Shown: piece after piece, positions 1 through 19,415 of the stretch
How positions within the stretch are numbered: position 1 is the stretch's first letter
How the letters are laid out: each line of letters begins with the position of its first letter
IMG/VR virus record: IMGVR_UViG_3300034374_005036
Location: 1-23,709 of that record
DNA from: a virus
Reading direction: 5' to 3' (one strand)
Length of the DNA: 23,709 nucleotides
Position numbers and translations under genes: made by a program
The notes under the pieces: model-generated
Told to the model about the DNA's origin: nothing
The model's database searches: none
The model's input: the letters and a program-made list of their open reading frames with translations, nothing else

Positions 1-3000
1 TTCACCTTTGATGCCAGGAAAGAAGCTTCCAAAATATTCGAGCCAATCCTCGTCACTCATCTTTGCCAGGGCTTGCAGCTTCTCTTCATCGCCAGTCGCC
101 AACGCATACATCAATCGCTGAAGAACAATGCCAAACATGAAGAACCCGACCAAGCGGGTAGCGAACATGGCTGTTGCGATAACCTGTTTTGAGGCGCCCT
201 GGCCCTCAAGCTGCTGGGCTCTTTTGAACGCGACCTTCTCAACGCGCGAATTGAATGCGTGTGAATAGGACATTAGCGACCACATCAACCGACCGGGCGA
301 CGACTTGCTGGCATAGACAGGCTTGTCAAGGCGCCCTGGCTCTAAGAAGTGGTTGTTCACATACTTGAACATGGCGTCGGTGATCTGGTCAAAATACTTG
401 CTGTTCTCAAGCTGCTCAGGCGTTGGCTTGAACCCCATAGACAGCAGCTCCTTCGACACCTGCTCCCAATCGTCTGTGATCCCAAAGTCTTTCAGCTCTT
501 GCTTGTAGACATCTCTTAGCTTGTCGCCTTTTTTGGCAAACCTGTAGAGGCGCCGGTAGGCATGCAGCGCGCCAATACGCTGCATCAGCATCATGTGTCC
601 TGTCATGCCGATAAAGCGGTAAGAGACTTGAGAGAACCTAGAGAGCGGGCCGTTATGGTTCTTGGCCGCGTCAACGTCCATGCCGGCCCTTGCGTGGTGC
701 AGCATCGACATTTGAAGGTCGGAGCCAATGCCTGCCAAAGCGGCAATTTCATTTGAATAATCAACAAAGTTTGTGGAGCGCTTGCCGACTAGCTTCGATG
801 CATGGTTCAATAGAACGCGCGCTTGTTGAGCCATGTGCGTAATGTAACCAGCAAAGTCGCCTTCAGCAAAGATCATGGTGGCGGGCTCTGTGAACTGCAT
901 GATAACCGCCTTAGGGAGCATCACCGCCGTGACAATGTTACTCGCGTTTTCAACGATTGGATTGTATTCGGCCAGGTCGAGGCCAGACGCGTAGCGCAGC
1001 AATTCAGCTCCAAGCGCTCGGTCTTTAGCCGTCGTGACATCGTTGATTTCGCTAAGGCCTTTAGCAATCAATTGCTCAAGGTTTTGCCTTGGCTGAAGCA
1101 CATCACCGCTTTTTGAGACCCCTGGCCCAACAGAAGCATACCAAGCTGTGATATCCGCAGCATTTGCAGCGTATGCGCGCGCCAAGGTCGAGACGTTTTG
1201 CACGCGATATTTGGCTGTGTTCTTGCGAGCTGTCGGTAGCAGCGAGCGTGACTTGGTGTGCGCCTCGTGTGAAGTTGTCCCTCCGCTGCCAGCTTCGTTT
1301 ATGATGGCTTTGATCCAACGGTCTGCGCGATCCTCAGCAATGGTCTGGATAACGTCATCCGTCAAATCTTCTGGTTCTTTGACCTTGTTGCGACGGGCTT
1401 CTTCGTTGGTCAAAATGCCATTCGCACCAGTTACCTTTTGTCCGTTGTCCAAGCGCTGGCTGATATCGTCGGCATAATCTTGGGTCGCCGCTTCGACAAA
1501 GCCGTCCTTGTCTTTGGCAATCAAATCGGCGTCATAAACGCCATAAATGTAAGACGAAGTGGCCATGATATTTGGGCCGATTTGGGCGTTAGTTGCTCGA
1601 TTGACGACGTAGTTTTGTTTGGCAAGCATGCTGTCAAACAGGTCACGCAAAACGCCGACCTTCTTCTTGACGACGCTGCGCATCTCCCCCGGCACGGTGG
1701 TGAAATTAAAGTTGGGATCGTCCAGCGCAGCGTAAACGTAGCGCTCCTCTTTCTTGGTCGGAGCTGCTTTCTTCAAAGCCTGCTCCACCATGTTTGCGTA
1801 CTGACCGCCGTACTTCTTCTTGGCCTCATGCAACACAAGCTGCTGCACGCGCCCGCTGCCAGGCGCATCAACAATGCTGTCGATCACACGACGCAAAGTC
1901 TTGCTGGAGCTGCCAAGTCGGCGCAGGGCAAGCAAGCGACCGCGCAGGTCCGCGTTCATAACTGCCGCCTTTTTTGCTGCGCCAGTTAGTCCGGCAATAT
2001 CTGTTTCGCCAAACGCCCTGTCTCGATCCCCCTTCTGCTGGGCTGTCAAACGCTTGCGCAGCTTGATTGTTTCTTCACGTCGAATGTTCTTCGACTGATC
2101 GGCTTCTTCTTCGATTTGCTTGGCGGGGTCAAAAAACAGCGGTGTAGGTAGGTCGGGCAATTCGTTCTGAATGTCCCTCGTTGTTGTCGTCTCTCTTGGC
2201 AACGCCTTCTGCGAGCCGCGAGCCTCAACAATGTTTTCGCCAATGATTTCACCGAACACACGTCTAAAGGCATCGCTGATTGCAGCCAGGTCTTTGAAGG
2301 ATGGATAGGCTTGGGCAATGTTCTCTTGAGCGTCGAGGTTGATTAGACCCTCAGGAACCACAGACGACAAGCCGCTCAAGCCAGAGCGAATTTGCACCCA
2401 GTTCGCCAAAGTCGCTTCAAACGCCCGAGCGGTCATTTCGGCAATTCGACCGGTGTAATCCATGTCAGACTTGGAGAGCTTGCCAATATCCGTATTCATG
2501 GCTGCATGAAGCTTGTTGATCTGGTCCTTTAGGGCCTTCCGCTTCTTCTTAACGCCAATGCCGCCTTGCGCCAGTTGCTCAAGCTGTTCTTCTAAGTCGC
2601 GCATCTGGATCGCGCGTTGTGCGTCGTCGCCCTCAAAGAGCGTCATAATCAATTCAGCATAGGCTTTCTTGATGGCCAATGCTGGTTCGTTCTTGGCTTG
2701 CCGACGCGAAGCCAGGTGTTCAGACAAAAGCTTGCCCTTGACCTGCCCCACCAGATAATTGTCGATTGCGTGGAACCATTCATGCGCAAAGGTGCTGTTC
2801 CGATTGACGGACACAACGAATGGCTTGGTTCCTTTGCCGCGCTTGTAGACGAAATACCCCATGACGCCTGGCTTCGGCTCGCCTGAAAAGCCCAGGCCAA
2901 TCTTTCCGTTTAGGCTCATGGCCTTGCGGTTGACGCCAATCACGTCGGCCATCTCGTCAAGATTGCCGTACATCTCAAGCGCTTGGTCAAGGACAGTTGC

Positions 3001-6000
3001 TTTTGACAAATTTCGCGACAGATTGATGAAGTCAAAGCCGTACTGATCTTGCAAGGCGCGCTTGACATAGCCAAGCTTCTTGTCGAACCCCATTGCATTC
3101 CAGTCGTCCAGCGGGATGCCGAACAAGTGGCGCACGCCAGTCTCACCGCTGCGCTTGGCAATGCCCTGCCGTGAAACGACATTCGGCTTCGAGGCGCTTT
3201 TGGTGCGCGCGTCGAGGCTTTCTTGCCCAGCACTTTTTTTTGCTTCCTGGGCTTGCGTCCGGCTAAACAAACCGTTCTGATCGGCGGCGGGCTTTGGCGC
3301 TGCGTCCTTCGTTTGTTTGGCACGCGCCACGTCAAGAATAGCGGCAGGATCGTCTACGCCGGCAAGAAGCCCACCATTAGCCTGCTTCTGGGCTTCATCC
3401 ACATATGTCTTGAAGAAGTTGACCATGTGATCTTGGCCGTAGGCAGCATTGCCTTCTGGGCGATAGAAGCTCTCAAGGATCTTGGTGACGACTTCGCTAT
3501 CGGGGTCGATGGATGTTTGACTGAGATAGTCCCTCAGCTTCGTGCCGCTCTTGCGCAGATCGGACAGACGCTTGACGGCCGTCACAATGTCTTGAGAAAT
3601 ATCCAAAGACTTTGGAATGGTGCCTTGTTCAGCCAGCGCTTTTATGTACGCATACGACGGCGCCACCTGCTTCAGAGCGTTGCCAATGCTCTTGACGTTG
3701 TTGTCAGGATCGTTGGTGAACAAATCAACCAATGATGGGTCGCCAAAAGCAGCATGGAGCAAGGCACCTTCAACGCGCTTATGGGCCTCGTTGTTCAGTT
3801 CACCCTCGCCATCGACCAGGTTTTGCAGCTCTTGAGTGGAGGCAATGGCTTTAATCACCGACTGGGCAAACCCTCTGTTGTTGGCGCCGTCCAGCTTGCC
3901 TCCCTCGTATTGGCTGAGAATGTCGCCAGTCAACTTGCCTGCATCGACCTTCGCGCGCTCCTTCACGCTGGAAGCCATCTTGTCGTCTTTGTTGGCGCCC
4001 TGAGTGAAAGACACACGTTCTTGGTCCGTGAACACAGTCGTGCGCCGACGGATCAAGACTGGTTTAGACATGCCTGTCGTATCGAAACCCAGGCTCTCAA
4101 TCATATTGCGATAGGCTTGGGCCTTGTCGCCAATCTCGTCATAGACAATGTTGATCGACCGCACGCGACCATTGCCTGACTCGATCACATTGTCTGGACC
4201 GACAATCGGCGCCCCACGGTCTGCGCTCGGATCGTCAAACAAGATGTAGGGGTCAAGGTTAGCTGCAATTTGCCGAATATTTGCATCACTGGCAATTGAT
4301 GTTCGGTCGCGACTTTGCAGCTCACCGTCCGCTCCAACCAATGTGTCGTACTCAACCACCTCAAATTCTGTATCGACCAGGCGGCCAGAGTCCGGTTCAC
4401 GAACACCGACCTGCTTGAGTTTGCCGTCTGTGTCTCTGAACGCGCGTCCTCGGCGGCTTGTGTTGTCGTCTTTCTGCTTTGCTTCGCCCGGATCAACCTG
4501 CGGCGAAGGCGTCAGAGCATTTGGCTCAACAGGCGCGGGCGCCGGTTGAGATGTTGCATTATCTGCAACAACTGGCACAGGAGAAACCGTTGGAGCGGTC
4601 GCCGGAGTAGGCTCTTGTACTTGCTGGGTAGGTGTCTGCTTGGGAGCCGCAGGAGCCGCGTCTGGCGTCTGTCCTGAACCCTGGTACTGTGGACCTGGAA
4701 CAATGTTTTGGCCCAGCACGAGGTCCCCCTGGGCGGCCGGCTGCGCGTTCAGGACATCAGCCAGGGTTTCCACTTTAGGCGCGCTAGTGACAGGAGCCGA
4801 GGGAGTGGCGTCGGGCGTTTGACCCGTGCCTTGATAATCAGCCACCGTGCCGGGCTGAACATTTTGTTCCGGCTTCCTGCCATCAACAAACAAGGTGATC
4901 TCGCCGGTCTTAGGGTCAACCGTATAGAGCGGGTTTTCTGTCCGCTGCTCGGGAGCCGGAGCCATGTTGCGTGCCGCCTGTTCTGGCAAAGCTGCATCAG
5001 ACTGCGCGGCCATGTCCTTCGCAATCGCGTCTGCTAGGGTCTCTGTCGTTTGATTGCGTGCCTGAATGTTCTGATTGGCAGCCTGGATGCCAGCAGTCGT
5101 ACCGCCTTGAACGATCTGCTGCCCGCCACCAAGAACGCCCTCTGCGACGATCTCTGGGCCGCTATAGACCTCTTTGTCGGTAATGACCTGGCCGAGAGCT
5201 TCTGTTGCTGCATCGCTGGCCGTACCCACGGCAGCGTCACGCGCAAACCGTTGGAGCAATGAGCCGCCCAGGCCGCCAGAAACAATGTCCGCAGCCGTAC
5301 CGCCAGCCGCGATTGCGGCTCCGCGTCCAAAAGCTCTGCTGTTCAGTTCTCGAACCAAGCCAGGGTTTTCAATGACGAATTGCTTTACGGCTTCAGGGTC
5401 GGTGGGGTCAATGCCAGCGCGTTGTAACTGGTCCTGAAGGGACGCCTCGCGCTCTGCCTCTGCTGCCGCGCTCAGTGTGATCGGTGCGCCAAACACCGGC
5501 GCCACCATAGTCGCCGCGCCAGCCGCGGTTGCCAGTGGTTGCGAGGCCACGGACTCAGCCAGCATGCTTCCTGCGCCGCTTGGGTTGCTTGCGAACGCAC
5601 CAAGGGTCTGGAGAGTGCCCTGCTGCATTGCGTCCTGAATGTTCTGCTGCTGCCGGCCGACGGGGATAGCGTCAAGCGCCGCCTTGCCTTGCTCTGCTCG
5701 CTTAGCTCCCTTCTCAATGCGTGTTGTGGCTCGATCCTGCAAAACAGGTTGAGCGGCAACCATGTTTTCAATGGCCTTTGCTAAGACAGACGGCGGTAGT
5801 TTTTGTGCTGTGCCTGGTTGCCATTGCATGGGAAATTCTTCGACCATGCGCGCGTCAATTTCTTCAGGCGTCATGTCTGGCGAAATGGCATTTGCTCTAG
5901 CCAAGTCCTCAGCACCAAGCGCAATTTCAGACACACCCTGCCTTTGCGGGCGCATGCCAAAGAAACCTCGCTCAATTGGATCAGGAATCCAATCGTTCGG

Positions 6001-6321
6001 CGTATAGGTCGGTGTCGTAGGCTCGGCTGGCTGAATGACAGGCGTAGGCGCGGCAGGTGCTACGTTTTGGTTCTGGGGTGCTTGTGGCGCACGGAATACG
6101 TCACCAAGCGTCTCGGGCTTTGGAACAGGCAAGGGCGCCATGTTCTTTCCCGGCACGAGTGGTGGAGCCTCTGCGGGCATAGGCGCAGGGACCGCGCCTT
6201 CAGACATGAACCACAGGTCTTCAATTTGCTCGTCTGTAAGCCCCCGCGAACGGCCCTGGTCAATGAAGGCACGCGATGGCCGCGTCGATTGCGACGACCC
6301 GAAGAGCTTTAGTGCGTCCAT
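1..6321 (-). CDS. Giant polyvalent internal virion (ejection) protein, gp16-like position, 3' end missing
   Basis: An open frame runs from ATG at 6321 to the left edge without a stop: 2,107 codons are visible and the C-terminus is missing. GGAG in the end of the preceding gene serves as ribosome binding site, 4 nt after that gene's stop. Visible parts: a Pro/Ala/Gln-rich N-terminal third; Gly/Ala-rich helical segments about 260-380; a ParB/DdrB-like region about 620-790 with E714-S-G-N-G-R719; a region about 1050-1190 resembling large polyvalent protein domain LPD1, ending in H1180-E-W-F-H1184, an HExxH metallopeptidase-like motif; long helical stretches; and a hydrophobic, probably membrane-spanning segment about 2044-2074. 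Its place last in the ejection cluster matches T7 gp16. By family knowledge, such proteins are packaged and injected with the DNA, and their domains may protect or modify it. Catalytic activity is inferred, not shown. Confidence 0.88.
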   Translation of the reverse strand, partial: MDALKLFGSSQSTRPSRAFIDQGRSRGLTDEQIEDLWFMSEGAVPAPMPAEAPPLVPGKNMAPLPVPKPETLGDVFRAPQAPQNQNVAPAAPTPVIQPAEPTTPTYTPNDWIPDPIERGFFGMRPQRQGVSEIALGAEDLARANAISPDMTPEEIDARMVEEFPMQWQPGTAQKLPPSVLAKAIENMVAAQPVLQDRATTRIEKGAKRAEQGKAALDAIPVGRQQQNIQDAMQQGTLQTLGAFASNPSGAGSMLAESVASQPLATAAGAATMVAPVFGAPITLSAAAEAEREASLQDQLQRAGIDPTDPEAVKQFVIENPGLVRELNSRAFGRGAAIAAGGTAADIVSGGLGGSLLQRFARDAAVGTASDAATEALGQVITDKEVYSGPEIVAEGVLGGGQQIVQGGTTAGIQAANQNIQARNQTTETLADAIAKDMAAQSDAALPEQAARNMAPAPEQRTENPLYTVDPKTGEITLFVDGRKPEQNVQPGTVADYQGTGQTPDATPSAPVTSAPKVETLADVLNAQPAAQGDLVLGQNIVPGPQYQGSGQTPDAAPAAPKQTPTQQVQEPTPATAPTVSPVPVVADNATSQPAPAPVEPNALTPSPQVDPGEAKQKDDNTSRRGRAFRDTDGKLKQVGVREPDSGRLVDTEFEVVEYDTLVGADGELQSRDRTSIASDANIRQIAANLDPYILFDDPSADRGAPIVGPDNVIESGNGRVRSINIVYDEIGDKAQAYRNMIESLGFDTTGMSKPVLIRRRTTVFTDQERVSFTQGANKDDKMASSVKERAKVDAGKLTGDILSQYEGGKLDGANNRGFAQSVIKAIASTQELQNLVDGEGELNNEAHKRVEGALLHAAFGDPSLVDLFTNDPDNNVKSIGNALKQVAPSYAYIKALAEQGTIPKSLDISQDIVTAVKRLSDLRKSGTKLRDYLSQTSIDPDSEVVTKILESFYRPEGNAAYGQDHMVNFFKTYVDEAQKQANGGLLAGVDDPAAILDVARAKQTKDAAPKPAADQNGLFSRTQAQEAKKSAGQESLDARTKSASKPNVVSRQGIAKRSGETGVRHLFGIPLDDWNAMGFDKKLGYVKRALQDQYGFDFINLSRNLSKATVLDQALEMYGNLDEMADVIGVNRKAMSLNGKIGLGFSGEPKPGVMGYFVYKRGKGTKPFVVSVNRNSTFAHEWFHAIDNYLVGQVKGKLLSEHLASRRQAKNEPALAIKKAYAELIMTLFEGDDAQRAIQMRDLEEQLEQLAQGGIGVKKKRKALKDQINKLHAAMNTDIGKLSKSDMDYTGRIAEMTARAFEATLANWVQIRSGLSGLSSVVPEGLINLDAQENIAQAYPSFKDLAAISDAFRRVFGEIIGENIVEARGSQKALPRETTTTRDIQNELPDLPTPLFFDPAKQIEEEADQSKNIRREETIKLRKRLTAQQKGDRDRAFGETDIAGLTGAAKKAAVMNADLRGRLLALRRLGSSSKTLRRVIDSIVDAPGSGRVQQLVLHEAKKKYGGQYANMVEQALKKAAPTKKEERYVYAALDDPNFNFTTVPGEMRSVVKKKVGVLRDLFDSMLAKQNYVVNRATNAQIGPNIMATSSYIYGVYDADLIAKDKDGFVEAATQDYADDISQRLDNGQKVTGANGILTNEEARRNKVKEPEDLTDDVIQTIAEDRADRWIKAIINEAGSGGTTSHEAHTKSRSLLPTARKNTAKYRVQNVSTLARAYAANAADITAWYASVGPGVSKSGDVLQPRQNLEQLIAKGLSEINDVTTAKDRALGAELLRYASGLDLAEYNPIVENASNIVTAVMLPKAVIMQFTEPATMIFAEGDFAGYITHMAQQARVLLNHASKLVGKRSTNFVDYSNEIAALAGIGSDLQMSMLHHARAGMDVDAAKNHNGPLSRFSQVSYRFIGMTGHMMLMQRIGALHAYRRLYRFAKKGDKLRDVYKQELKDFGITDDWEQVSKELLSMGFKPTPEQLENSKYFDQITDAMFKYVNNHFLEPGRLDKPVYASKSSPGRLMWSLMSYSHAFNSRVEKVAFKRAQQLEGQGASKQVIATAMFATRLVGFFMFGIVLQRLMYALATGDEEKLQALAKMSDEDWLEYFGSFFPGIKGE

Positions 6322-6325
6322 GGCT

Positions 6326-7756
6326 TTATTCTCCGTACCGCTTGGCCCACATTGCTTCTGCGTCAGCCGCGGTACCGCCGTTGTCGATCACGCGCTTGAA
6401 GAATGCCGCTTTGAGTTCTTCTGGTGAGAGCTGCGTGCCGCCTTGGCTTTCTGCCGCCGCCGTCGCGGCCACGGGATCGCTAGGGGCAAAGATCGAGGCA
6501 ATGCCCTGATATCGCTTCTCTGGATGAGCCTCTAGCTCGGCCGTCCGGTTGTTTATCGCATCAAGCGCGGCGCCCGCTGCGCTATCTACGTTTTGAGCCA
6601 TGACTTCAGGAACACTGGCAACAGCATTGCCAACGGCTCCTGCTGCTCCGCTGACAGCATTTCCGACAGTGTTAGCCGCTCCACCAATAGAGTCACCAAC
6701 GCCACCCACAATGCGGCCTGGCAATGCAAGCCAACTGTTTTCGCTTGCTTGGTCGGGTGCTTGCGCGCCCGCGACTGCATTCACAATAGGGCTCTGATCT
6801 GGCGCAGGGGTAGCGCCCACGGCGGGCTGATCTGGCACAGTCCGACCATTGATACTCGCAGGCTTTTGCTGCGGGACAAGAACGTCCATTGCATAAGTAT
6901 CCGTTGGCTTCCCGCCAAACACGCCGCCGAGCGCCGGCTTCTTCTCTCCGGTTACAGCGATGTAGGTCGGGGGCGCGGCTTTGCCAGCAATCTTGCTTGC
7001 TTCGTTGCGCGAATAGGACGGGCCAAGTTTGTTCTCGTTGATCTGCCCCTTGTTTGGCGCGCGCGTGTAGCGAGACCCATCTATCACGGCACCAGCAATC
7101 TTTTCCTCGGCGCCAAGCAGGTAGGTGGCCGCATCCTTCGACAGTCCGTCAAAGCCAGTAATGTTGCCTTTGCTATCTCTTTGAACGCCAATCTCATCCA
7201 ACATTGTTGCTGGAATGCGGCCCGCCGCAATGTCGTCTTGAACCTTTTTCAGAATTGATCTGTTCAGCTCAAGATTGGCAGCCGTTTGCACTTTGTTGCG
7301 CGTTTCGGAGCCAACTTCATTCAACAAGCCTGCGGCCTTGTCTGCTGATACGATTGTTGGGGCTGCCGCCGCCTTAGTGCCAGACTTCTTTGCTGCCTTT
7401 TTCCCACTTGACCGGGCTGTGGGTGATGGACCGATCGTCCTCCCATTGACCGCTCGCAACTGCGCCTGCCCTGGCAACATGCCCATCGTCCGACGAGAAC
7501 CAGGATCAACGCCAAACAGATTGCCGCCATTGCCACCGCGAAAGCCCGCAGCGCGCAGATACTCGCTCGGCAAGCCAATGCCGCGCGCCATCGCGTCTTG
7601 CTGGAACGCGCCAGCCGAAGCGCCAAACCCACGGCCAGGATAATAGCCGCGCAAACGATTGCGCATTGCCATTGCAGCTTCCATTGGGCTCATGTCGCGC
7701 GTGTTGACGCCTGCGCCGATGTTCATTGGCGGCATACCGCCTGCTGACATACACAT
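6326..7756 (-). CDS. Probable ejection (internal virion) protein with glycine-zipper segment
   Basis: This 476-residue protein is not recognised by sequence. ATG at 7756 follows AAGGAA at an 8-nt spacing, and that site overlaps the stop of the gene before. It starts MCMS, like the protein two genes upstream. Features: a Met/Gly-rich N-terminus; a Lys/Ala-rich linker about 120-135; a central mixed domain about 135-275; a Pro-rich stretch; and about 345-390 a run with repeated small residues (VGGVGDSIGGAANTVGNAV and following), a glycine-zipper pattern typical of helices that pack in membranes. The C-terminus is charged. In T7 this slot, between gp14 and gp16, holds gp15, part of the channel that crosses the periplasm. 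The gp15 role is inferred from position and the zipper segment. Confidence 0.85.
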   Translation of the reverse strand: MCMSAGGMPPMNIGAGVNTRDMSPMEAAMAMRNRLRGYYPGRGFGASAGAFQQDAMARGIGLPSEYLRAAGFRGGNGGNLFGVDPGSRRTMGMLPGQAQLRAVNGRTIGPSPTARSSGKKAAKKSGTKAAAAPTIVSADKAAGLLNEVGSETRNKVQTAANLELNRSILKKVQDDIAAGRIPATMLDEIGVQRDSKGNITGFDGLSKDAATYLLGAEEKIAGAVIDGSRYTRAPNKGQINENKLGPSYSRNEASKIAGKAAPPTYIAVTGEKKPALGGVFGGKPTDTYAMDVLVPQQKPASINGRTVPDQPAVGATPAPDQSPIVNAVAGAQAPDQASENSWLALPGRIVGGVGDSIGGAANTVGNAVSGAAGAVGNAVASVPEVMAQNVDSAAGAALDAINNRTAELEAHPEKRYQGIASIFAPSDPVAATAAAESQGGTQLSPEELKAAFFKRVIDNGGTAADAEAMWAKRYGE

Positions 7757-7768
7757 GACGATTGTTCC

Positions 7769-8338
7769 TTAAATGCTCATCAACAGTTTGGCGCGGCCCT
7801 TCGCGCCATCGTACTGTCGTTCGATCCAATTCATTGATCCAGGCATGGCGTTCGTTCCGGCTCGTGACTGGCCGCCAAGCTGGTTGTTGTCGCTCGTCGT
7901 ACGATCCATGCCCGAAGTCAGATCAAACAAGGTTGGGCCAAAGGCGCCAAATGCCGCTCGCCGCATGCCCTCTGCTGCTGTCGCGTCAGCTACTCTTGCG
8001 TTGGTGTTGGCAATGGCGTTTGCAATGGGGCTGTCCATGCCTGCCACTGTTCCCGGCACGGTGTAGGGGTTGGGACTAGCAACCGCCGCATAAGCGTTCT
8101 GTAGGCCTTCTTGATTGGCCGCCATGTCAGAACCAAACTGTGCCGGGTTCATCGTTGCCTGTTGCTGATCGTAAGTCGCCTGCGCTTGCTTTTGAAGCTC
8201 ATCCTGAAACGCCATTTCTCGCGCCAGGTAGGCTTCTTCTTGTGCGCGCTGCGCTTTCTCTGCTCGCATCATCTGGCTTGCACCAGCGAAATTGACCGCT
8301 GTGGTGGCCAGGCCGATTGCTGCTGATGGACTACACAT
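7769..8338 (-). CDS. gp14-like internal virion protein
   Basis: This 189-residue protein begins MCSPSAAIGLATTAVNFAG. The Met-Cys start followed by a small-residue hydrophobic helix, then a Gln/Ala/Glu-rich helix (about 22-65), is the pattern of T7 gp14, which starts MCW and has 196 residues. gp14 is thought to form the outer-membrane part of the ejection conduit. ATG at 8338 is preceded by TAAGGGGG, in which the TAA is the stop of the previous gene. The C-terminal half is Ala/Asn/Thr-rich without known motifs. The neighbours are other ejection-type genes in the same direction, which supports the call. Confidence 0.85.
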   Translation of the reverse strand: MCSPSAAIGLATTAVNFAGASQMMRAEKAQRAQEEAYLAREMAFQDELQKQAQATYDQQQATMNPAQFGSDMAANQEGLQNAYAAVASPNPYTVPGTVAGMDSPIANAIANTNARVADATAAEGMRRAAFGAFGPTLFDLTSGMDRTTSDNNQLGGQSRAGTNAMPGSMNWIERQYDGAKGRAKLLMSI

Positions 8339-8347
8339 AAATCCCCC

Positions 8348-8986
8348 TTAGCCGATCACATAGTATGGGTTGCGGTTGGTCGCATACGGGTCGTAGATGT
8401 TTCCTCCACTGCCCGTTGTGCGCTTAGAAGCTGAACTGGCAAGGCTCCCCAAAGAACCAAGAGCAGAGCCAATTGCCCCGCCCATAGCGCTGTAGCTGCT
8501 AGACAGACGCGGGAACATCGGCTCGGCCAAAGCACCCTCAACCTGGTTGAGCGCAGCATTGTAAGAGGCGTTCGGATCGAAGGTCGTGTTGACCATCGTC
8601 AGGCCTTGCTTGCGCGCATCCGACACCTGCCCTTTCAAGCCCTGGATATACTGGTTTTGCTGATCCACCAGGTCTTGCTTGTTGCGCTCATATTCTTGAG
8701 ACAAATCACCGTACAAGCTGGCGGCCGCCGACGTGTTCGACATGCCCTTGCGCGCGAAGTCATAGGCCAGCTTTTGCCGCGCTTCGTTGTACTGCTGCTC
8801 GGCCTGCGGTTGGTAGTTGTCCATGAAGGCAGTGCGCCGCTCCTGATAGAAGTCAGGCGTAAAGGTGTTGTCAAAGTAGTCGTTGATTTGGGTCGTGCCT
8901 TGAGCCACCTTTTGGGCCTGTTCACGCGCGCGGATTTCCGACGGTGACGGGCCAAGGTTGCTTGGCATACTTCCAGACATGCACAT
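8348..8986 (-). CDS. Probable internal virion protein, helical, Met-Cys start
   Basis: This 212-residue protein starts MCMSGSMPSNLG. The start at 8986 has AAGGAG 8 nt upstream, and that site overlaps the stop of the gene before. Residues about 18-115 are strongly helical and rich in Gln, Glu, Arg and Asn (for example DLSQEYERNKQDLVDQQNQY), suggesting a coiled coil. Residues about 165-190 form a Gly/Ala/Ser run (AMGGAIGSALGSLGSLAS) that could be a membrane-seeking glycine-zipper helix. The C-terminus is Tyr/Asn-rich. No homologue is recognised. Its place in the ejection cluster and the shared Met-Cys start suggest a packaged protein. Confidence 0.85.
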   Translation of the reverse strand: MCMSGSMPSNLGPSPSEIRAREQAQKVAQGTTQINDYFDNTFTPDFYQERRTAFMDNYQPQAEQQYNEARQKLAYDFARKGMSNTSAAASLYGDLSQEYERNKQDLVDQQNQYIQGLKGQVSDARKQGLTMVNTTFDPNASYNAALNQVEGALAEPMFPRLSSSYSAMGGAIGSALGSLGSLASSASKRTTGSGGNIYDPYATNRNPYYVIG

Positions 8987-8998
8987 GGTCTTGGCTCC

Positions 8999-9952
8999 TT
9001 AGCTAAACAGTTTGTATCGCTGGCGAATGCGTGGATTGCGCAGGTAGTCAATGGGGGTGGCGCCAGTGCGTGACGCATCTCGGCGCGCTGCCTGTGAGGC
9101 CATCTGAAACAGCTTGGCGCCCGGAACAGCGCTTGAAAATGGATTGGCCGCTTCGGTGTATTGCGCGCCTTGAAGCCCGCTCAGAGCGTTGGCAAGATTG
9201 GTTTCGTTGCCCGCGATTTTGCCGGACCCCGTTACGCCGCCAGCCGTAAGCCAATAGTCACTTGCGTAAACGCCCCTCTGAACTTTGTTCGGCGCAGTCT
9301 GCGCCCCACGCGTGCCGCTTCCGTCAACGCTACCCGCCTTCTCGCTGTTCAAGACGTTCTGGAAATAGTCGTTGAAAACGTTCCCAACATTCCCAGCGTA
9401 TGAGCTTGTTGCGTCATTCGCGGATTGAGTCATGGAGCTGAGAGCGTCCTTGTAAATGCTCCCAATACGCGCTCTTTGAGTCTTTTCAAATGACTTACCA
9501 CGCTGGCCGCTTCGTGCGGCCGCATTTGCCAGGTCTTGCATTGCGCCCACCTGATACCCGTCAAGCGCTTCTGTCTGGCCACCAATGTGCTGCTGCTGCC
9601 CGTCATAGATGGAGCCCGCCAAATTGGTTGCCTGGCCGTTCATTCGCGCAAGCGTGTTCAATGCCTGCATTGCATCAACAGCATCTCGGGACGCGGCGAC
9701 AGAATTGAAGAAATTGCCATGAATTTTGTCGCGCTTGTTTTCGCCCGCGTTGGTGAGCTTCCAGTCATATCCAAACAACCCCGTTGGTTTTTTATACCAA
9801 TAGCTACTGTCGTATAGCTTCCGGTCATTCGTAAACGCATTCATGTAGTTTGTTGCGTCGTTGGAATAGCCCGTTTTCCTGGTGCTCATCGTGTTTTTTG
9901 CAGGATCGTATCCAGCGGAAAGCGTTGACAGGATATCTGCAAGACTAGGCAT
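8999..9952 (-). CDS. Hypothetical virion-associated protein
   Basis: This 317-residue protein (MPSLADILSTLSAGYDPAK...) is not recognised. A longer frame reaches 10030, but ATG at 9952 has GGGAGG with a 5-nt spacer and overlaps the preceding gene by only 8 nt, so I chose it. The protein is rich in Ala, Asn, Gln, Ser and Gly. A helical central part (about 75-210) has regular Ala/Asn spacing (DAVDAMQALNTLARMNGQA, then SMTQSANDATSSYAGNVGN). The C-terminus is basic (RNPRIRQRYKLFS). It lies between the gp13-like and gp14-like genes. A structural or ejected protein is likely from context; no catalytic motif is seen. Confidence 0.82.
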   Translation of the reverse strand: MPSLADILSTLSAGYDPAKNTMSTRKTGYSNDATNYMNAFTNDRKLYDSSYWYKKPTGLFGYDWKLTNAGENKRDKIHGNFFNSVAASRDAVDAMQALNTLARMNGQATNLAGSIYDGQQQHIGGQTEALDGYQVGAMQDLANAAARSGQRGKSFEKTQRARIGSIYKDALSSMTQSANDATSSYAGNVGNVFNDYFQNVLNSEKAGSVDGSGTRGAQTAPNKVQRGVYASDYWLTAGGVTGSGKIAGNETNLANALSGLQGAQYTEAANPFSSAVPGAKLFQMASQAARRDASRTGATPIDYLRNPRIRQRYKLFS

Positions 9953-10430
9953 GATTGCCTCCCACATAAGCAAAACAGACAAAACTTTCGCCGCCCTTAC
10001 CCCATCCTTCGTGAATGGCCTCGGGTTCAAATCCCAGCACGGTGAGCCAATTGTGGGCTTCCTTGTGATCGGCGTGGCTCCAACAATGCGCCCGGTGGCA
10101 GCCTTCCTTGGCCATCTGCGGGTTCATCACGCGCGCAGCAAACTTGGTCGCCGTCAAAGCAACTTGCTTCCACTTGGGTGTGGCCCACATGCCAACGCCC
10201 CAAACGCCCGGCCAGTGTTCTTGGGCCGTAATCAGAGCGACAGGCTCATTTCCCAGAAGTACGCAAAAGCGCATGCGCGCCTTCATGCACATGAAAATCA
10301 GAGTGTCGGACGCTTCTTCAATTGTATCAAACGGCAGGCCAGCCAATAACTCTTTCGCATCTTCATCGCGCATGTTGCGCGTCACGTGAGAGATTTGGGC
10401 CTGTGTTGCCTTAACGACGGTTCGCTGCAT
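9945..10430 (-). CDS. GNAT-like protein, T7 gp13 / DUF2833-type
   Basis: The protein has 161 residues from ATG at 10430. An alternative ATG at 10499 would add 23 residues and overlap the nozzle gene by 89 nt; the 10430 start has GGGGGT 8 nt upstream and overlaps by 20 nt, so I prefer it, without certainty. Residues about 60-145 look like an acetyltransferase fold: a strand (FCVLLGNEPVALITA), a Trp-rich turn, a helix, then WSHADHKEAHNWLTVLGFE, in which the H..AH.WL..LGF end matches the last helix and strand of GNAT proteins. T7 gp13, in the same genome position, belongs to the related DUF2833 family. Activity is unproven; it may be purely structural. Confidence 0.8.
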   Translation of the reverse strand: MQRTVVKATQAQISHVTRNMRDEDAKELLAGLPFDTIEEASDTLIFMCMKARMRFCVLLGNEPVALITAQEHWPGVWGVGMWATPKWKQVALTATKFAARVMNPQMAKEGCHRAHCWSHADHKEAHNWLTVLGFEPEAIHEGWGKGGESFVCFAYVGGNHA

Positions 10431-11859
10431 CAAAATGGACCCCCAACATGCCAAGAATTGCTCTCTCGCTGGTCGCATTGACGCAACGAATTGAGACATG
10501 GCTAGTCACACCTTTCAGTGCAATTTGCTGCAAGCTGAAGGTGGAGCCATTGAAAACACCAGCCTCATAGAAGATCGATGGATCACGAGGGTCTGGGTGG
10601 ACGTAAACCCGCCATGTGCCCTGCGCAGCAATGTCCAGCCCCTTCAACGTCTTGTGGCCAGACGGGTCTTGCAGGGCAATGAATGGCGTCTGAACCTCGA
10701 CGGTGGCGCTGTCATAGGTCTCGCCGTCGGTCCCGCCGTAGAGATACAGCGTATTCCCAGAGCGCACATAGAGCTTCTGACGAATGCTCGCCACATGCTC
10801 AGCAGAAAACCCAAGGGAATACTCGCTCCAAGCGCTGATCTGGCTGCTCGGAAACTGGCTGTAGACGAATGTTCTGTCGCCAATCTGGATCGTGTAGCGC
10901 CCGTCTTGAGGGTCTTGCCAGGCCATTGAAGCTGCAACGGTTGCCGCGCTTTGCCCATTGACGTGTTCAAGGATCGTCGCATCAACAGCCGTTCCAATGC
11001 TCGAAGCCGAGGCATAGTTAGAGGACGACTTGGCGCGCAGGGAGCGAATGCCCCTGTTGTCCAGATAATAAACGTCGTCTGAACTCATGGCCACAATGCT
11101 GTTTGGCGCGTCGGTGCCCGCCGCCGTCAAGGTCTGGCTTACAAAGTTGAAATCAGCGTCAACGTCAATTGACCAAAGTTGGATTGCATCAGTGCCGAAA
11201 ATGGCCATCAGGTCCATGTATGGCACGACGCCCGTAATGTCCTCGATGCCTTCAGTCTGGCGCGAGAAGCCAATTGATCCGGCGCCAATGGAAGGGTCGG
11301 CAGGATCGTCGCCGTCGTCCGTCCAATTGGCCGGCTCATTCAGGTTCGAGAAATAGAGAAATCCGTCAGCCGGGCTGTAAACCTTGGCCTTATACGGCAT
11401 AGCAAATGTGCCGATAGCCACAGGATTGCCGGTCGCGCCGTCATACCAATGAGAGATGATTGTCCCGTCATAGAAGTGCCGGGTAGACCCGTCGTCAAAC
11501 GTAGCAATGACGTACATCAGCCCATCAAAACTCGTCACATCCAGAACGCCAGTCATGTTGGCCGCGCTTTCATGGACAAGCTGTTGATAGTTGACAGTCG
11601 TGCCGTTGCCTAGCGTGTAAGGAAAACTCACAGGAGCCGCACCCGAGCCAAAAACATAAAGCTGCTTGCCAGACACACCCAGGCCAAAAGAGCCGCTCAG
11701 ATCGAGCCCCTGGTCCACATAGGCCTTACGCTTTTCAATCTCACCGCCACGGGTCAAGTGTGCGTTGGTCAGGCTGATAAGGGTGCCAGGCGCAGCCGTG
11801 TCAATCATGCGCCGGTCATCAAGACCGCCGCGAAAATTCTCAATCAAGGCAAGAGGCAT
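10411..11859 (-). CDS. Tail nozzle / stabilisation protein (T7 gp12 or P22 gp10-like)
   Basis: The protein has 482 residues. ATG at 11859 lies 1 nt after the adaptor stop, with GGAGG at a 7-nt spacing. The N-terminus (IENFRGGLDDRRMIDT, then N-HL-RGGEIEKRKAY) has the 'N..GG......G...KR' layout seen at the start of T7 gp12. Most of the protein is beta-rich with repeated Trp/Tyr/Gly-Asp turns (YLYGGTDGETYDS, VYSPADGFLYFSN), suggesting a beta-propeller that closes the head-tail channel below the adaptor. The length is close to P22 gp10 and shorter than T7 gp12. The tail-tube role is well supported by position; which family it belongs to is open. Confidence 0.82.
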   Translation of the reverse strand: MPLALIENFRGGLDDRRMIDTAAPGTLISLTNAHLTRGGEIEKRKAYVDQGLDLSGSFGLGVSGKQLYVFGSGAAPVSFPYTLGNGTTVNYQQLVHESAANMTGVLDVTSFDGLMYVIATFDDGSTRHFYDGTIISHWYDGATGNPVAIGTFAMPYKAKVYSPADGFLYFSNLNEPANWTDDGDDPADPSIGAGSIGFSRQTEGIEDITGVVPYMDLMAIFGTDAIQLWSIDVDADFNFVSQTLTAAGTDAPNSIVAMSSDDVYYLDNRGIRSLRAKSSSNYASASSIGTAVDATILEHVNGQSAATVAASMAWQDPQDGRYTIQIGDRTFVYSQFPSSQISAWSEYSLGFSAEHVASIRQKLYVRSGNTLYLYGGTDGETYDSATVEVQTPFIALQDPSGHKTLKGLDIAAQGTWRVYVHPDPRDPSIFYEAGVFNGSTFSLQQIALKGVTSHVSIRCVNATSERAILGMLGVHFDAANRR

Positions 11860-13026: not shown

Positions 13027-14193
13027 TTACTTGAACTCCATCACCATCGACGTGTTGCGCTGCCAGCAGCACAAAGCACCAGTGTAGGTGATTGCACGAT
13101 AGAGAGCGTATTGGTCGTGGGGACGTGCCGGGTGGTGAATACGATCAACCTCACCGTCCATGTCGTAGAGTTTGATCCGAGACGTGTCGATGAAGTACGC
13201 GCGCTTCAGGAAGTCCTTGTCACCAGATGTGCCAAGATCGTCCAGCGAAGGATCGTACTCGAACTTCAGCTTGCCGAACTTTGGCTCGGACATGTCGAAG
13301 TTGGTTGCTGTGCCGTTTGCAAAGCCCTGCTGGGTCAGGATGCCTTTGGCAAACAATTCTGCCTCCAAAGTCTCCATGAACTCAGAGCCACAAAGAACCA
13401 TATCAGGCCCTTTGCCGTAGCGACGAAGCTGGCGCATTTCATTGCGAACAGCGGTCATCAACGGACTGTCGATTGTGGCGCCAGTCACATCAACGCGGCC
13501 ATCAACAGCACCGACCAACACGTTCGCACGGTTGCGCCACCAAGTGCGAACCTCGGTTGCACCAGTCCGGCTAGTGGTGATACCGCCAACGGTCTCAGAG
13601 AAGTCACCAGAAGCAGGAATGTCCGTAATAACGGACTGGATGCCCGGCACCAGGGTTGAGTCTTGAGTGCCGTCGTCCCACAACATCGCGTTGAAGGCGG
13701 CCTCGTAACCCTCCATCATGTCGTTCAGCTTGTCTTTCAACAGGCTGTGAATGCGGGTCACATCGGCTTTGGAGTGGTTGGACGTGCTGGCGCCGTTTGC
13801 GCTGTCTGTCACGGTAATGCCGTCTTGCTTCAGCTCGGTGAAAGTCACAGACAGACCGTCGTGCAATTCTTTCCAATCGAACTGAGCTTGATCGACATTA
13901 CCACGGTTGCCGTAGCTTACCGTGTCAGTGTAGGCGTAGCCTTGCATGGTGTGCTCGGGCTTGCCCTTGACGTTGCGGCGAATTGAAGTGTTACCGCCAG
14001 GGTAGACTTCAGATTTGCTGCGCATTGCATCGTAGAGAGGACGCGCTTGGCGCTCGTTCTCTAGGGGTTGACCCTTGATGAAGTAGTCAAGCGCAGCATT
14101 CATAATGCTATCAAGCTGCGCCTGGGTGAAAGTGCCAGCGTTTGCGTCGTTATAAACGCTGGCCTTTGAAGTAGCTGAAGTCAGCAAAGCCAT
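13027..14193 (-). CDS. Major capsid protein
   Basis: The protein has 388 residues. ATG at 14193 has AGAAGGA 8-9 nt upstream. It lies directly after a scaffold-like gene and before the small protein and adaptor genes, where podoviruses encode the coat protein. The sequence is balanced, with an N-terminal helix (TQAQLDSIMNAALDYFI), a long central helix (ADVTRIHSLLKDKLNDMMEG, then YEAAFNAMLW) and a C-terminal strand-rich part (RIKLYDMDGEVDRIHH...), as expected for the HK97-type coat fold. A promoter upstream and a GC-rich hairpin downstream suggest it is made at a higher level than its neighbours. I cannot assign a specific coat family. Confidence 0.85.
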   Translation of the reverse strand: MALLTSATSKASVYNDANAGTFTQAQLDSIMNAALDYFIKGQPLENERQARPLYDAMRSKSEVYPGGNTSIRRNVKGKPEHTMQGYAYTDTVSYGNRGNVDQAQFDWKELHDGLSVTFTELKQDGITVTDSANGASTSNHSKADVTRIHSLLKDKLNDMMEGYEAAFNAMLWDDGTQDSTLVPGIQSVITDIPASGDFSETVGGITTSRTGATEVRTWWRNRANVLVGAVDGRVDVTGATIDSPLMTAVRNEMRQLRRYGKGPDMVLCGSEFMETLEAELFAKGILTQQGFANGTATNFDMSEPKFGKLKFEYDPSLDDLGTSGDKDFLKRAYFIDTSRIKLYDMDGEVDRIHHPARPHDQYALYRAITYTGALCCWQRNTSMVMEFK

Positions 14194-15251: not shown

Positions 15252-15281
15252 AAAAAAACGGGGAAATAGGCCGAGACCTAT
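15252..15281 (-). other. Weak stem plus T-run between portal and scaffold
   Basis: On the minus strand AUAGGU-CUCG-GCCUAU (15281-15266) is a short stem overlapping the portal stop. Seven Ts follow after a 7-nt gap (15258-15252). The stem is too weak and the gap too long for a convincing terminator, but it may lower read-through just before the internal promoter. Confidence 0.3.
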
Positions 15282-17356
15282 CCAGAGACAGCCGCTTGCG
15301 CAGCCCCGCCATCAGTCACTTGATTCAAATTTGGGTCCATTGGCGGACGCCCTGGCGCCCCCGTACCAGGCCGCGCGCCCGCTGGGCCTTGAGCATTGGG
15401 GTCGGTTGCGGGATCACCTGTGCCGGGTTGCTTCATGGCGTTCATGGCCACAATAGACGGCACCGCCTCTGCAATTGCTTCGTTCACATCTAAGCCGTCG
15501 TCCAGGCGCGTCAGGACTTGTTCAACCAGCCATGACGGTGAAATTCCTGGCATTTGGATAAGGAAGGGAATGACGCGCTCAAGATTAGCAAGCTCTTGCG
15601 CCTTGTTCGGGCGTCCTGACGACCCGGCACGGACTTCTAGGAACATTTCGTTGGCAATCTCTTGGCGGTTCAGCTCCGGCCAAACGGCACCGTTGCCTAC
15701 AATTGCCTTCACACGATCGGCAGGCATTTCAACCAACAAGACCTTGCCGGCATCGCGGCCAATCTGAGACAGCAAAGTATCAAGCTCGTCCACCTGGCTT
15801 TGCATGGCCGACATGCGAGAGCTTTCAGCAATCGAACTCTCTGTTGCAGAGGCGCCCGCCGTCCCGCCAAAGTTGGCTTCTTGGGCGCCCGCAATCCGTT
15901 GAATGTCGTCAAACGTGCTGGAAGTCTCGTAAAGGATCGGGTTGATCTGCGGCAAAGCCATTGGCTGGATAACCTGATCGACAGAGCGCCCTTCTTCCAA
16001 TGATTGCAATTCAAGGTGCTGGAAGGCAACGCCGTTCTTCAGCTTGTTCTTGTCCTCGTCCGTCAACATGCCAGCCGGAGAAACTGTCTTAGGACGGCTT
16101 GCAATGCGGTGTTCGCGCAATCCTTGCCGGGCACGATTGTATTCTAATTGAGCGTGGCGAATAAGGCTCACATCTGAACGCGGCCACAAGCTTTCTGACT
16201 GCTCGTCCACCTCAAGCGTATGGAAGGCCAAGGTGTAGATTGGAAAGAACTGATCGACTTCGACGTTTGGATTTTCTGGCGCAGCCAGATATTCAGGGTA
16301 GCCGTCCGCAATGGTGAACTGCGTGTTGGTCGTCTTGTCGTAGACCTCCCAAACGCACACCAGCTCGTCGCGGGGTCCAGACGATTGCTTGCGACCTGCT
16401 GAACGATAGCCGCCATTCTTGTTTTCCGTGTAAGCGTTGTATTTCTCTTTCACGTCAACGCCGTAAATCTGCAACACCTCATCGCGCGTGAAGTGGAACT
16501 GTTGGGCAAGCCAATTAGCATTGATCCACCCCTGGACGCTTGTGCAAGCAGGATCGGGGATGATTGATGTTGATGATGGGAAGTCAAACACCAAGCCTTC
16601 GCGAAGGACGATCTGATCTTGGCTTTCCATGCTGCTGATTGCGTTTTCAAGCTCTGCGCGCTCCGCGTCCAACAAGTCAATTTCTTCATCGGCTGCATCA
16701 AGGAGCTTTTGTTGAATGATTGCCAGGCGGTCTGTGTGATCGGCGATCTGCGTCTTGATCTCTGGCCGCAGGTCCATCTCTCGCTGATACCCAAGCTTCA
16801 CATAGCCAACACCGGTCGTCACGGCACGACGCACGGCAGACTTCATCTGTTGCTTGAAGCTGTGGCGCTGTTCGTCGATCTCGTACTTGAACAGGATCTC
16901 CAAGGTTTTACCCATGCGCTTAGCCATCTCTTGAGTAAGAGAGCCTTCAGCGTAATCGGCCAGCAAAGTTGCCGGAGCAAGAGACGCCGGGTTTTCAAGG
17001 CCTGCCATCTGAAGCGCTTGAACGGCTTGCATGATCTGTTCGATCTTCCCGTCCCAATAGGCATAGGGAAGCTTCTCCCTGCGCTTGGCAACAAAGCGAG
17101 GGTTCTTTGCATAAAGACTAGCCGTGCGCGCATCGACAAATCGTTGCGTGATGTTGGCAATGTAGAGGTTTTGGTTGCTTGCATAGTTGCCTTCAGAGCC
17201 GAAGCGCGCAAGCTTCTGATCTTCCATCATTTGCTTGAACGCTGGTTCATGGAGCTTCTTGGCGTCCATGATTTTTGACTGCCAGCCTTGAATGTATTTG
17301 CGGTGTTCGACAGGCAATTCCATGTCGTCGTCCCGCTCAGCCATCATCTCTTTCAT
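15278..17356 (-). CDS. Portal protein
   Basis: The protein has 692 residues and comes directly after the terminase gene, overlapping it as TAATG. Position and size fit a podovirus portal (P22 gp1 is of similar length). The N-terminal quarter has RFVDARTASLYAKNPRFVA, a pattern common in portal N-termini (helix, then 'lyaknP'). A helical coiled stretch about 205-240 (LAIIQQKLLDAADEEIDLLD...) is followed by a strand-rich wing. A region about 405-560 with SLIRHAQLEYNRARQGLRE and the conserved-looking ATESSIAESSRMSAMQSQV helix probably forms the stem and crown. The tail is Pro/Gly-rich and disordered. It forms the dodecameric DNA channel at the packaging vertex. Confidence 0.85.
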   Translation of the reverse strand: MKEMMAERDDDMELPVEHRKYIQGWQSKIMDAKKLHEPAFKQMMEDQKLARFGSEGNYASNQNLYIANITQRFVDARTASLYAKNPRFVAKRREKLPYAYWDGKIEQIMQAVQALQMAGLENPASLAPATLLADYAEGSLTQEMAKRMGKTLEILFKYEIDEQRHSFKQQMKSAVRRAVTTGVGYVKLGYQREMDLRPEIKTQIADHTDRLAIIQQKLLDAADEEIDLLDAERAELENAISSMESQDQIVLREGLVFDFPSSTSIIPDPACTSVQGWINANWLAQQFHFTRDEVLQIYGVDVKEKYNAYTENKNGGYRSAGRKQSSGPRDELVCVWEVYDKTTNTQFTIADGYPEYLAAPENPNVEVDQFFPIYTLAFHTLEVDEQSESLWPRSDVSLIRHAQLEYNRARQGLREHRIASRPKTVSPAGMLTDEDKNKLKNGVAFQHLELQSLEEGRSVDQVIQPMALPQINPILYETSSTFDDIQRIAGAQEANFGGTAGASATESSIAESSRMSAMQSQVDELDTLLSQIGRDAGKVLLVEMPADRVKAIVGNGAVWPELNRQEIANEMFLEVRAGSSGRPNKAQELANLERVIPFLIQMPGISPSWLVEQVLTRLDDGLDVNEAIAEAVPSIVAMNAMKQPGTGDPATDPNAQGPAGARPGTGAPGRPPMDPNLNQVTDGGAAQAAVSG

Positions 17357-18960
17357 TAGAAACCATCCGCGTGTTCAAAGGCGTTTAGACGCGCCCTATT
17401 TGTCATGTACTTCACCCAACCGAGCGTGCCGGTCGGAGGAATGCCCGATTGGCCAACGCCACCAGCGCTTGCCTTGACCATGCTTTTCACGCCGAGCCCC
17501 AGGTAGCTCATCGTATCAACAATGTCGTCATGCTGGCCGTTCGGGAAAGAAAGCAGCTCGTTTTCAAAATGGTGGAGCCAGCTTGCATTGCGAGGGATTT
17601 TCACCAGGCCCATGCCCATCATGCCCTGGATGGACTGGGAGCGCTGCATCTTGTCCTCTTTTGGCGCCATCTCTCGGATGTTGATCCAAGTGCCAGTCTC
17701 TTGCATCTGCTGCTTCAAGAATGGGCCAATTGACTGCGTGATATGCGTGCGCTCAGCAAACCAAATGAGAGGCTTGTACTTGTCGGCGAACCAGAGCATT
17801 GACTTCACCTGGCCCATCGAGGACGCCTTTTTGCGCCACATATCGACGATGTAAAGAATGCCCTTCTCATCCACCGCGCCGCAGATGAAAACTGTGTAGT
17901 CGTTCTTTTGCCCGCTCTTAACAGCATGGTCACTGGCGACGTAGTAGCGACAGTTTGCTGGAAGGTCTTTGAAGTTGTAGTAGTCGAACCATTCACGCTG
18001 GAATGTCACGCCTTCTGCTGGCGTCGGGTTCGACTGGAACACACACGAAAACGCCGTCACGCCCATTTGAGCGCGCATGTCTTTCAAAGACTTGGTGCTG
18101 TGAATTTCAGGCCAAAGCGGCTCATCTACCTTGCGACCAAGTGGATCATCATCTTCGGCCAGAGCTTTCAGATTGATAATGTGCCAATCCTTAGCGACCT
18201 TTGGATTGTAGTGCGGGTTGTCCTTGTTGGTCAGGCGGCCAATCACATCATCTTCATGCCAGCGCGTCATAATGATAAGGACAGCGCTGTCCTTGTTCAT
18301 CAATCGCGTCATAAAGGTGGTGGTGAACCATTCCCAGCACGTGTTTCTGATTGTTGGCGACTGAGCTTCTTCCTGGTCTTTGAACAAGTCGTCCACGATC
18401 AACAAGTGGCCGCCACGTCCCGTAATTGCACCACCACGGCCCACAAAGTAACCGTCGCCGCCGCGAATGCCGTTGGTATCAACACCGATCCGTCGCTTGC
18501 TTCGAACGCCTTTTGTTAGCCGCACGTCTGGAAAGACTTGGTTGAAAGCAGGGCTGGCAATCAGCTCGCGCACCTTTTCGCCATGCTGATCGGCAAGGTC
18601 TTGGTTGTAGGTGGCCAAGATCACGTTTTTGGTGGGGTTGCGCCCTAAGAACCAGGCGCTTCCGCGCAGGCTGAAATGCTCCGTCTTACCGTGCCGGGGT
18701 GGAACAGTGACAATCAAGCGCTTGTACTTGCCGGCTTCGACAGCTTCCATCGTCCGGCAAAACAATTCATGCACGCGGCTTGGGCGATAAAGAGTGCGCG
18801 ATGGATCGTCTGGATTGCGCGGGTCTGGCATGGTGTGGTGGATGAAGGTGCCAAGATTGTCGTGAGCCTCGCGCGCCTGAAGCAATCGTTGCGCAACAAG
18901 AGCCTGACGCTCCTTCATGCGAGCATCGCCGAAGTCAAATGCCCGTTCGTGTCTAGCCAT
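17356..18960 (-). CDS. terL: Terminase large subunit
   Basis: The protein has 534 residues from ATG 18960, which overlaps the nuclease stop (ATGGCTAG). An upstream start at 19020 would overlap by 68 nt and is less likely. The N-terminal ATPase has a Walker A motif VPPRHGKTE (86-94), a Walker B motif LLIVDD (186-191), and IIMTRWHEDDVIG (about 229-241) as coupling motif. The C-terminal RNase H-like nuclease shows acidic residues at VASD344, D354 and D373, and HDDIVD (477-482). It is the motor that cuts and pumps DNA through the portal encoded next. No small terminase is recognised nearby. This is the firmest assignment in the window. Confidence 0.95.
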   Translation of the reverse strand: MARHERAFDFGDARMKERQALVAQRLLQAREAHDNLGTFIHHTMPDPRNPDDPSRTLYRPSRVHELFCRTMEAVEAGKYKRLIVTVPPRHGKTEHFSLRGSAWFLGRNPTKNVILATYNQDLADQHGEKVRELIASPAFNQVFPDVRLTKGVRSKRRIGVDTNGIRGGDGYFVGRGGAITGRGGHLLIVDDLFKDQEEAQSPTIRNTCWEWFTTTFMTRLMNKDSAVLIIMTRWHEDDVIGRLTNKDNPHYNPKVAKDWHIINLKALAEDDDPLGRKVDEPLWPEIHSTKSLKDMRAQMGVTAFSCVFQSNPTPAEGVTFQREWFDYYNFKDLPANCRYYVASDHAVKSGQKNDYTVFICGAVDEKGILYIVDMWRKKASSMGQVKSMLWFADKYKPLIWFAERTHITQSIGPFLKQQMQETGTWINIREMAPKEDKMQRSQSIQGMMGMGLVKIPRNASWLHHFENELLSFPNGQHDDIVDTMSYLGLGVKSMVKASAGGVGQSGIPPTGTLGWVKYMTNRARLNAFEHADGF

Positions 18961-19411
18961 CAGCGCACCAGTCTTTCTTTGCGCCCTGGCCAAAGTACGG
19001 AGCAGCAAGACCAGCACCAACGATCAAATCAGACCATGATAAGCTGTCGCCTCGCGTCACGTTTGCAACGACGCGGCCAGCGAATTTGCCCAGCACGATG
19101 TGAGTTAGGTTGACTGTTGATCCGACCTCAAATGCTTCGGCCATGATCGTCTTGGCCTCTTGCGCACGCTGCTTTTCAAGGTCGCACTTTCCATGACGTT
19201 CTGGCGTGTCAATACCAAACACGCGGACGCTGATGTTATCGACTGTGAGCTGAGGCCAGACGCGCGCGTTGACGACGATGGTATCTCCATCAATCACGCG
19301 GACGACTTGAGCCTCTACGGGACCGGAAATGGTTTCAGCACCATGAACAAGCTTGGCGCCAAAAATGGAAATTGCAAAGGCGCAAACGCCAAAGGTAATT
19401 CGCCACATCAT
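18953..19411 (-). CDS. Secreted staphylococcal-nuclease (thermonuclease) family protein
   Basis: The protein has 152 residues from ATG 19411 (GTG 19414 and ATG 19408 are alternatives). Residues 1-25 form a signal peptide: a short start with Arg, a hydrophobic core ITFGVCAFAISIFGA, then KLVHGA before the mature chain. The SNase core carries the equivalents of all six active-site residues of S. aureus nuclease: DGDT (D43), R63, D68-T69-P-E71, and R113 in FAGRVVANV. It should cut single- and double-stranded DNA or RNA with calcium, outside the cytoplasm. It lies between holin and terminase, overlapping the terminase start by 8 nt. What a phage gains from an exported nuclease is open. Confidence 0.9.
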   Translation of the reverse strand: MMWRITFGVCAFAISIFGAKLVHGAETISGPVEAQVVRVIDGDTIVVNARVWPQLTVDNISVRVFGIDTPERHGKCDLEKQRAQEAKTIMAEAFEVGSTVNLTHIVLGKFAGRVVANVTRGDSLSWSDLIVGAGLAAPYFGQGAKKDWCADG

Positions 19412-19415
19412 CACA

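Follow-up and report, generated by a model that had tools for sequence, protein, structure and literature searches.

What is encoded by the giant open reading frame that runs off the end of virus record IMGVR_UViG_3300034374_005036, and what is the role of its HEWFH sequence? The window, that is the whole stretch of DNA analyzed, comes to 23.7 kb (23,709 nt) of viral sequence and is probably a fragment. The original prediction was of a polyvalent virion protein of more than 2,100 residues, probably injected, with ParB-like GNGR and HExxH motifs. A single frame is indeed open for 2107 residues, from an ATG at 6321 on the minus strand to the end of the window with no stop, but the protein does not end there; its complete form of 2290 amino acids is given by a near-identical contig (L002:405-7277), which matches across all 2107 residues with one difference (G/V near 1431). 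In that contig the giant gene is followed by a 140-aa lysozyme, and then by an integrase and a repressor-like gene, so that the phage is probably temperate. The closest prophage relatives are found in Alphaproteobacteria, and comparison of the whole protein with the sequences of the PDB gave no match. The features of the window are collected in Table 1.

Table 1. Positions in the window of the giant ORF, its component parts and selected genes of the late operon.
Feature	Residues	Window position	Strand	Remarks
Giant polyvalent ORF	1-2107 of 2290	1..6321	-	cut by window end
Ala/Gly-rich hydrophobic stretch	263-287	5461..5535	-	within N-terminal 1-640
DdrB-like ParB domain	646-761	4039..4386	-	Pfam PF18763, E 2.6e-30
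SGNGR motif	715-719	4165..4179	-	invariant, 18 aligned sequences
Partner region of ParB domain	770-1009 (~1010)	3295..4014	-	also in P1 DdrB, E 1.8e-44
CLCA_X-type metallopeptidase domain	~1079-1370	2212..3087	-	NF041907; profile-profile; models
HEWFHAID (H1180, E1181, H1184, D1187)	1180-1187	2761..2784	-	conserved in 77 relatives
Pfam LPD1 match	1284-1358	2248..2472	-	best read as C-terminal half of peptidase
E1295, proposed third zinc ligand	1295	2437..2439	-	57/59 relatives not selected for motif
C-terminal core	1750-2107 of 1750-2110	1..1074	-	PHROG 342
Hydrophobic segment	2046-2076	94..186	-	probably membrane-active
476-aa gene		6326..7756	-	directly upstream of giant ORF
212-aa gene		8348..8986	-	near giant gene, kept in syntenic phages
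184-aa gene		9945..10499	-	related to gene annotated N-acetyltransferase in syntenic phages
Major capsid protein		13027..14193	-	NCBIfam capsid_maj_Podo
Portal protein		15278..17356	-	
Terminase large subunit		17356..19020	-	

The minus strand of the window is a late operon, with terminase, portal, a protein at the scaffold position, major capsid protein, adaptor, head-closure proteins, small genes and the giant ORF. Relatives of the terminase, portal, scaffold-position and capsid genes are found with their order mostly kept in Microcystis phage Mae-Yong1326-1 and Rhizobium phage RHph_N65, as are those of the adaptor, head-closure, acetyltransferase-like and 212-aa genes. Between the head genes and the giant gene lie the 476-aa gene and a 189-aa gene (7769-8338), for which no relatives were detected in any of the loci compared, although their neighbors are conserved; by its position the 476-aa product would be a virion or ejection protein. 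In RHph_N65 the slot of the giant gene holds a 708-aa protein and a separate lysin (L006:8757-10883), and comparison of the 708-aa protein with the peptidase, ParB domain and core gave no match. According to its description, Mae-Yong1326-1 (L005, OP028995.1) has a flexible tail of 340 nm and infects a cyanobacterium, despite which its structural genes are syntenic with those of the podovirus-like window and of the Rhizobium relatives; its morphology or host may perhaps be mismatched with the genome. Elsewhere in the window, an H-type lectin domain (Pfam E 7.5e-12) is found in a 342-aa protein (20055-21083) that is encoded beside the tail fibre gene and is likely to be a receptor-binding protein. 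An SNase-like or endonuclease protein (18953-19414) overlaps the terminase gene at its start, a place in which one might look for a small terminase subunit.

The front of the giant protein begins with a long N-terminal part, and a search with residues 1-640 detected no relatives. The domain that follows is a real ParB domain of the DdrB type, scoring 105.5 bits against the curated cut-off of 27.6 for the family, and the GNGR originally noted is part of an SGNGR motif that, together with Y737, is unchanging in 18 of 18 aligned sequences. Iyer et al. (PMC5512222) have described the conserved arginine and family tyrosine of ParB as pocket residues. By analogy with its family, the module probably acts as a nucleotide-dependent DNase or binds DNA. 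It is accompanied by a helical and unannotated partner region of ~240 residues, found next to the ParB domain in the relatives and in DdrB of phage P1.

The HEWFH sequence falls exactly at the predicted H1180-H1184. The stretch containing it matches the NCBIfam family CLCA_X (NF041907) over residues 1090-1307 with E 2e-11, at a score of 43.8 bits that is below the whole-protein cut-off of 260, and profile-profile comparison of the peptidase domain with the stand-alone family gives E 5e-75. Relatives were sought by comparing five seed sequences with viral contigs, whereby 423 were found and 80 kept, using an AHEW motif and an E..AR.FE motif as hooks. None of the 77 aligned domains, most of which were recruited via AHEW itself, departs from A1179, H1180, E1181, H1184 and D1187. 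The same 77 domains retain E1295, R1299 and E1302 in 95-97% of cases, and Y1289 is conserved alongside R1299 and E1302. Among the 59 relatives found without the E..AR.FE hook, E1295 is present in 57, R1299 in 56 and E1302 in 55. Judged from these alignments, HEWFH marks the active site of a genuine metallopeptidase family, and the metal site envisaged there has in E1295 a conserved candidate for its third ligand.

E1295 lies within the match to the Pfam family LPD1 (PF18796), and here the order of the elements has to be revised. An LPD1-like domain had been expected to end in HEWFH, but it begins ~100 residues after that motif, in the same peptidase. Family profiles, which had been suggested as a check of the ParB and LPD domains, match the protein for ddrB-ParB and CLCA_X; LPD1 scores 22.6 bits against a Pfam cut-off of 27 and is thus below it, while the relatives reach 48 to 101 bits. 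LPD1 comes after HEWxH in all four of the reference giants. The reverse test started from LPD1, scanning 369 whole genomes of one class and 385 of another. This gave four new places with LPD1 over the cut-off, each with HEWxH upstream in the same frame, and one further place below the cut-off, at which a peptidase match was absent.

The two halves are also found together as a protein in their own right. A search of bacterial genomes made with the peptidase alignment revealed ~60 stand-alone genes (L094-L168, e.g. L098:8926-9723) of ~255 aa that contain only the CLCA_X/LPD1 unit, from ~60 species that are nearly all marine gammaproteobacteria. Their sequence is very strongly conserved, and the AHEW-type and downstream E motifs are both kept in 59 of 59 aligned. 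A predicted structure of the stand-alone protein L098, based on 42 sequences, has a pLDDT of 92.2 and a pTM of 0.91. Its best PDB matches in Foldseek are zincin metallopeptidases, at modest scores: first come entries for anthrax lethal factor (E from 0.034, probability up to 0.97), aligned over ~265 columns for the 266 residues of L098, followed by Wss1 and then the ERAP/LTA4H aminopeptidases; none of these passes E 0.001. The model of the peptidase domain of the giant protein (58 sequences) has a pLDDT of 78.7 and gave no Foldseek match in the PDB. In it a helix is followed by three strands, the HEXXH helix, a helical insert and the helix bearing E1295. The order of elements in both models fits a zincin, with a strand sheet, the HEXXH helix and a later helix with the candidate ligand, and we take the matches of the L098 model as support, not proof, for a zincin fold. 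Given the conservation of E1295, the stand-alone genes with both halves, the reverse test and the zincin fold matches, the best reading of LPD1 is that it forms the C-terminal half of the CLCA_X peptidase and probably provides a zinc ligand. In the open-licence papers searched we found no description of LPD1 as a part of CLCA_X that provides the third ligand.

What connects this protein to the virion? The C-terminal core of 361 aa matches PHROG 342, 'internal virion protein with endolysin domain', with E 4.6e-8. The same family is matched by 15 of 21 aligned core members, and PHROG 6958 and 30152 (internal or structural virion proteins) by 15 core members each. PHROG 342 includes T7 gp16 over its full length. 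The match of the core to T7 gp16 alone is not significant, while that to six gp16 sequences is collinear over 253 columns with E 4e-4 and a probability of 35%. A profile search of the PDB finds the phage ejection protein 8vb2 at E 0.0034. Fragments of 590 and 871 aa of the giant protein gave no match to virion-protein families, which were matched by the corresponding longer fragments of two relatives; a search of phage genomes with the single C-terminal half gave no match of any kind, and virion proteins were found only by the family-level core search. No Pfam family was matched by residues 1360-2290, and the possibility that the core is an LPD38 domain was ruled out (hhalign probability 1%). 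The late membrane segment that had been foreseen is there as one hydrophobic stretch. The idea of an injected virion protein is supported indirectly, by the syntenic place of the gene, by the match of the core to the T7 gp16 family and by P1 DdrB, which is found in virions.

Comparison of the relatives reveals a constant peptidase and core, preceded by a part that differs. When searched core-first, the peptidase is present in every ORF that has enough upstream sequence. Most of these giants have ParB at the front; two have an ADP-ribosyltransferase, and two a weak methylase-like match, which in one case accompanies ParB. In the remainder the front is unrecognized, though a module may have been missed, as some of the ORFs are cut at that end. 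In a Vibrio hannami contig (L102) the ParB, peptidase and core pieces are split among several short frames, as if the giant gene had decayed.

The most likely reading, which we hold with reasonable though qualified confidence, is that the giant protein is an ejected polyvalent internal virion protein with a gp16-like core, a ParB front and a CLCA_X zincin between them; PMC12810830 is cited in support of such an ejected protein. It would leave the capsid together with the DNA, and the core and its membrane-active segment would serve passage through the cell envelope, while the ParB module at the front would act on DNA or nucleotides. The zincin, complete only with its HEWFH and 'LPD1' halves, would hold zinc through H1180, H1184 and E1295, with E1181 as general base, as suggested by conservation and by the model of the relative. 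The peptidase might then cut poorly conserved linkers of the giant protein itself, before or after ejection, and so free the ParB module from the envelope-bound end; we put forward this self-cleavage only tentatively. A function in counter-defence or host takeover may also be envisaged.

Instead of cutting its own polypeptide, the peptidase could stay joined after ejection and act on host or defence proteins, as Iyer et al. (PMC5512222) have offered for polyvalent metallopeptidases. Its occurrence alone in ~60 bacterial species shows that a polyprotein to cut is not needed, but in the giants the front varies and the link between peptidase and entry core is constant; this suits processing better, and we consider such an ejected effector rather unlikely. 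We regard it as improbable that the ParB and peptidase modules lack catalytic activity and serve as a scaffold when the head is assembled or loaded. P1 DdrB would provide the parallel, since it is listed as a helper in the addition of DarB to the capsid (PMC9024508) and plaque formation was not impaired on ddrB knockdown (PMC10695390), yet even very divergent relatives retain the active-site residues of the two modules. That this is a late cytoplasmic protein, encoded in a structural operon without belonging to the virion, is very improbable, given that the gene follows head and portal genes as in the syntenic phages, that the core matches virion proteins and that JC1 virions contain a DarB-like giant protein (PMC9144972).

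Returning to the ejected protein with an internal zincin, its two parts can be combined in one proposal, for which we claim no more than that it is plausible: LPD1 would be no separate domain but the zinc-ligand half of the CLCA_X zincin, and in this lineage of phages the peptidase, permanently joined to the gp16-like core, would be a release joint for interchangeable fronts (ParB, ADP-ribosyltransferase, methylase-like). If LPD1 and CLCA_X are indeed to be merged, the number of domains without explanation in polyvalent proteins, now 40, falls by one, and a mutable active-site residue is predicted. The constant peptidase and core with variable fronts provide a testable idea of payload release after entry.

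How does the giant protein compare with known systems? It is more than twice as long as P1 DdrB (995 aa). The two match over almost the full length of the ParB domain and of the helical region after it (E 1e-38 and 2e-44). In both proteins ParB comes first and a peptidase later. However, P1 DdrB lacks the C-terminal core and has at its end a metallopeptidase of its own, of another clade (HELGH at 872); membership of the same clade was ruled out, there being no match to the giant's peptidase profile. T7 gp16 is comparable through the core, which aligns with positions 811-1066 of the PHROG 342 profile, and through the gene position of an ejected protein. In contrast to gp16, a transglycosylase domain was not found in the giant protein, which has ParB and the peptidase instead, and the single-sequence match is weak. 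ORF38 of Mae-Yong1326-1 (2441 aa) is the product of the syntenic gene and shares the peptidase and C-terminal core, but it has a different front part in which a ParB domain was not found.

The peptidase belongs with CLCA_X, a zincin-like family for which Lenart et al. 2013 (PMC3650047) already reported phage members and many long proteins. The domain is the same, with AHEWxHxxD and the NCBIfam match in the giant protein, but the extra ligand suggested there is the nearby aspartate, and the one proposed here is a conserved glutamate in the LPD1 segment, ~70-220 residues further downstream. Iyer et al. 2017 (PMC5512222) described polyvalent proteins with DdrB-ParB, metallopeptidases and LPD1, including a peptidase clade with HEXXH and an aspartate three residues on. 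The giant protein is like these in being very large, multidomain and virion-linked, and in combining DdrB-ParB, a metallopeptidase and LPD1; with at least two distinct domains and a gene among those for the virion, it is polyvalent in their sense. In that study LPD1 was among the domains of elusive function, whereas here it is read as the C-terminal half of the peptidase. Thus the giant protein is a new polyvalent protein of an already described type, and the proposed re-annotation of LPD1 is its useful outcome.
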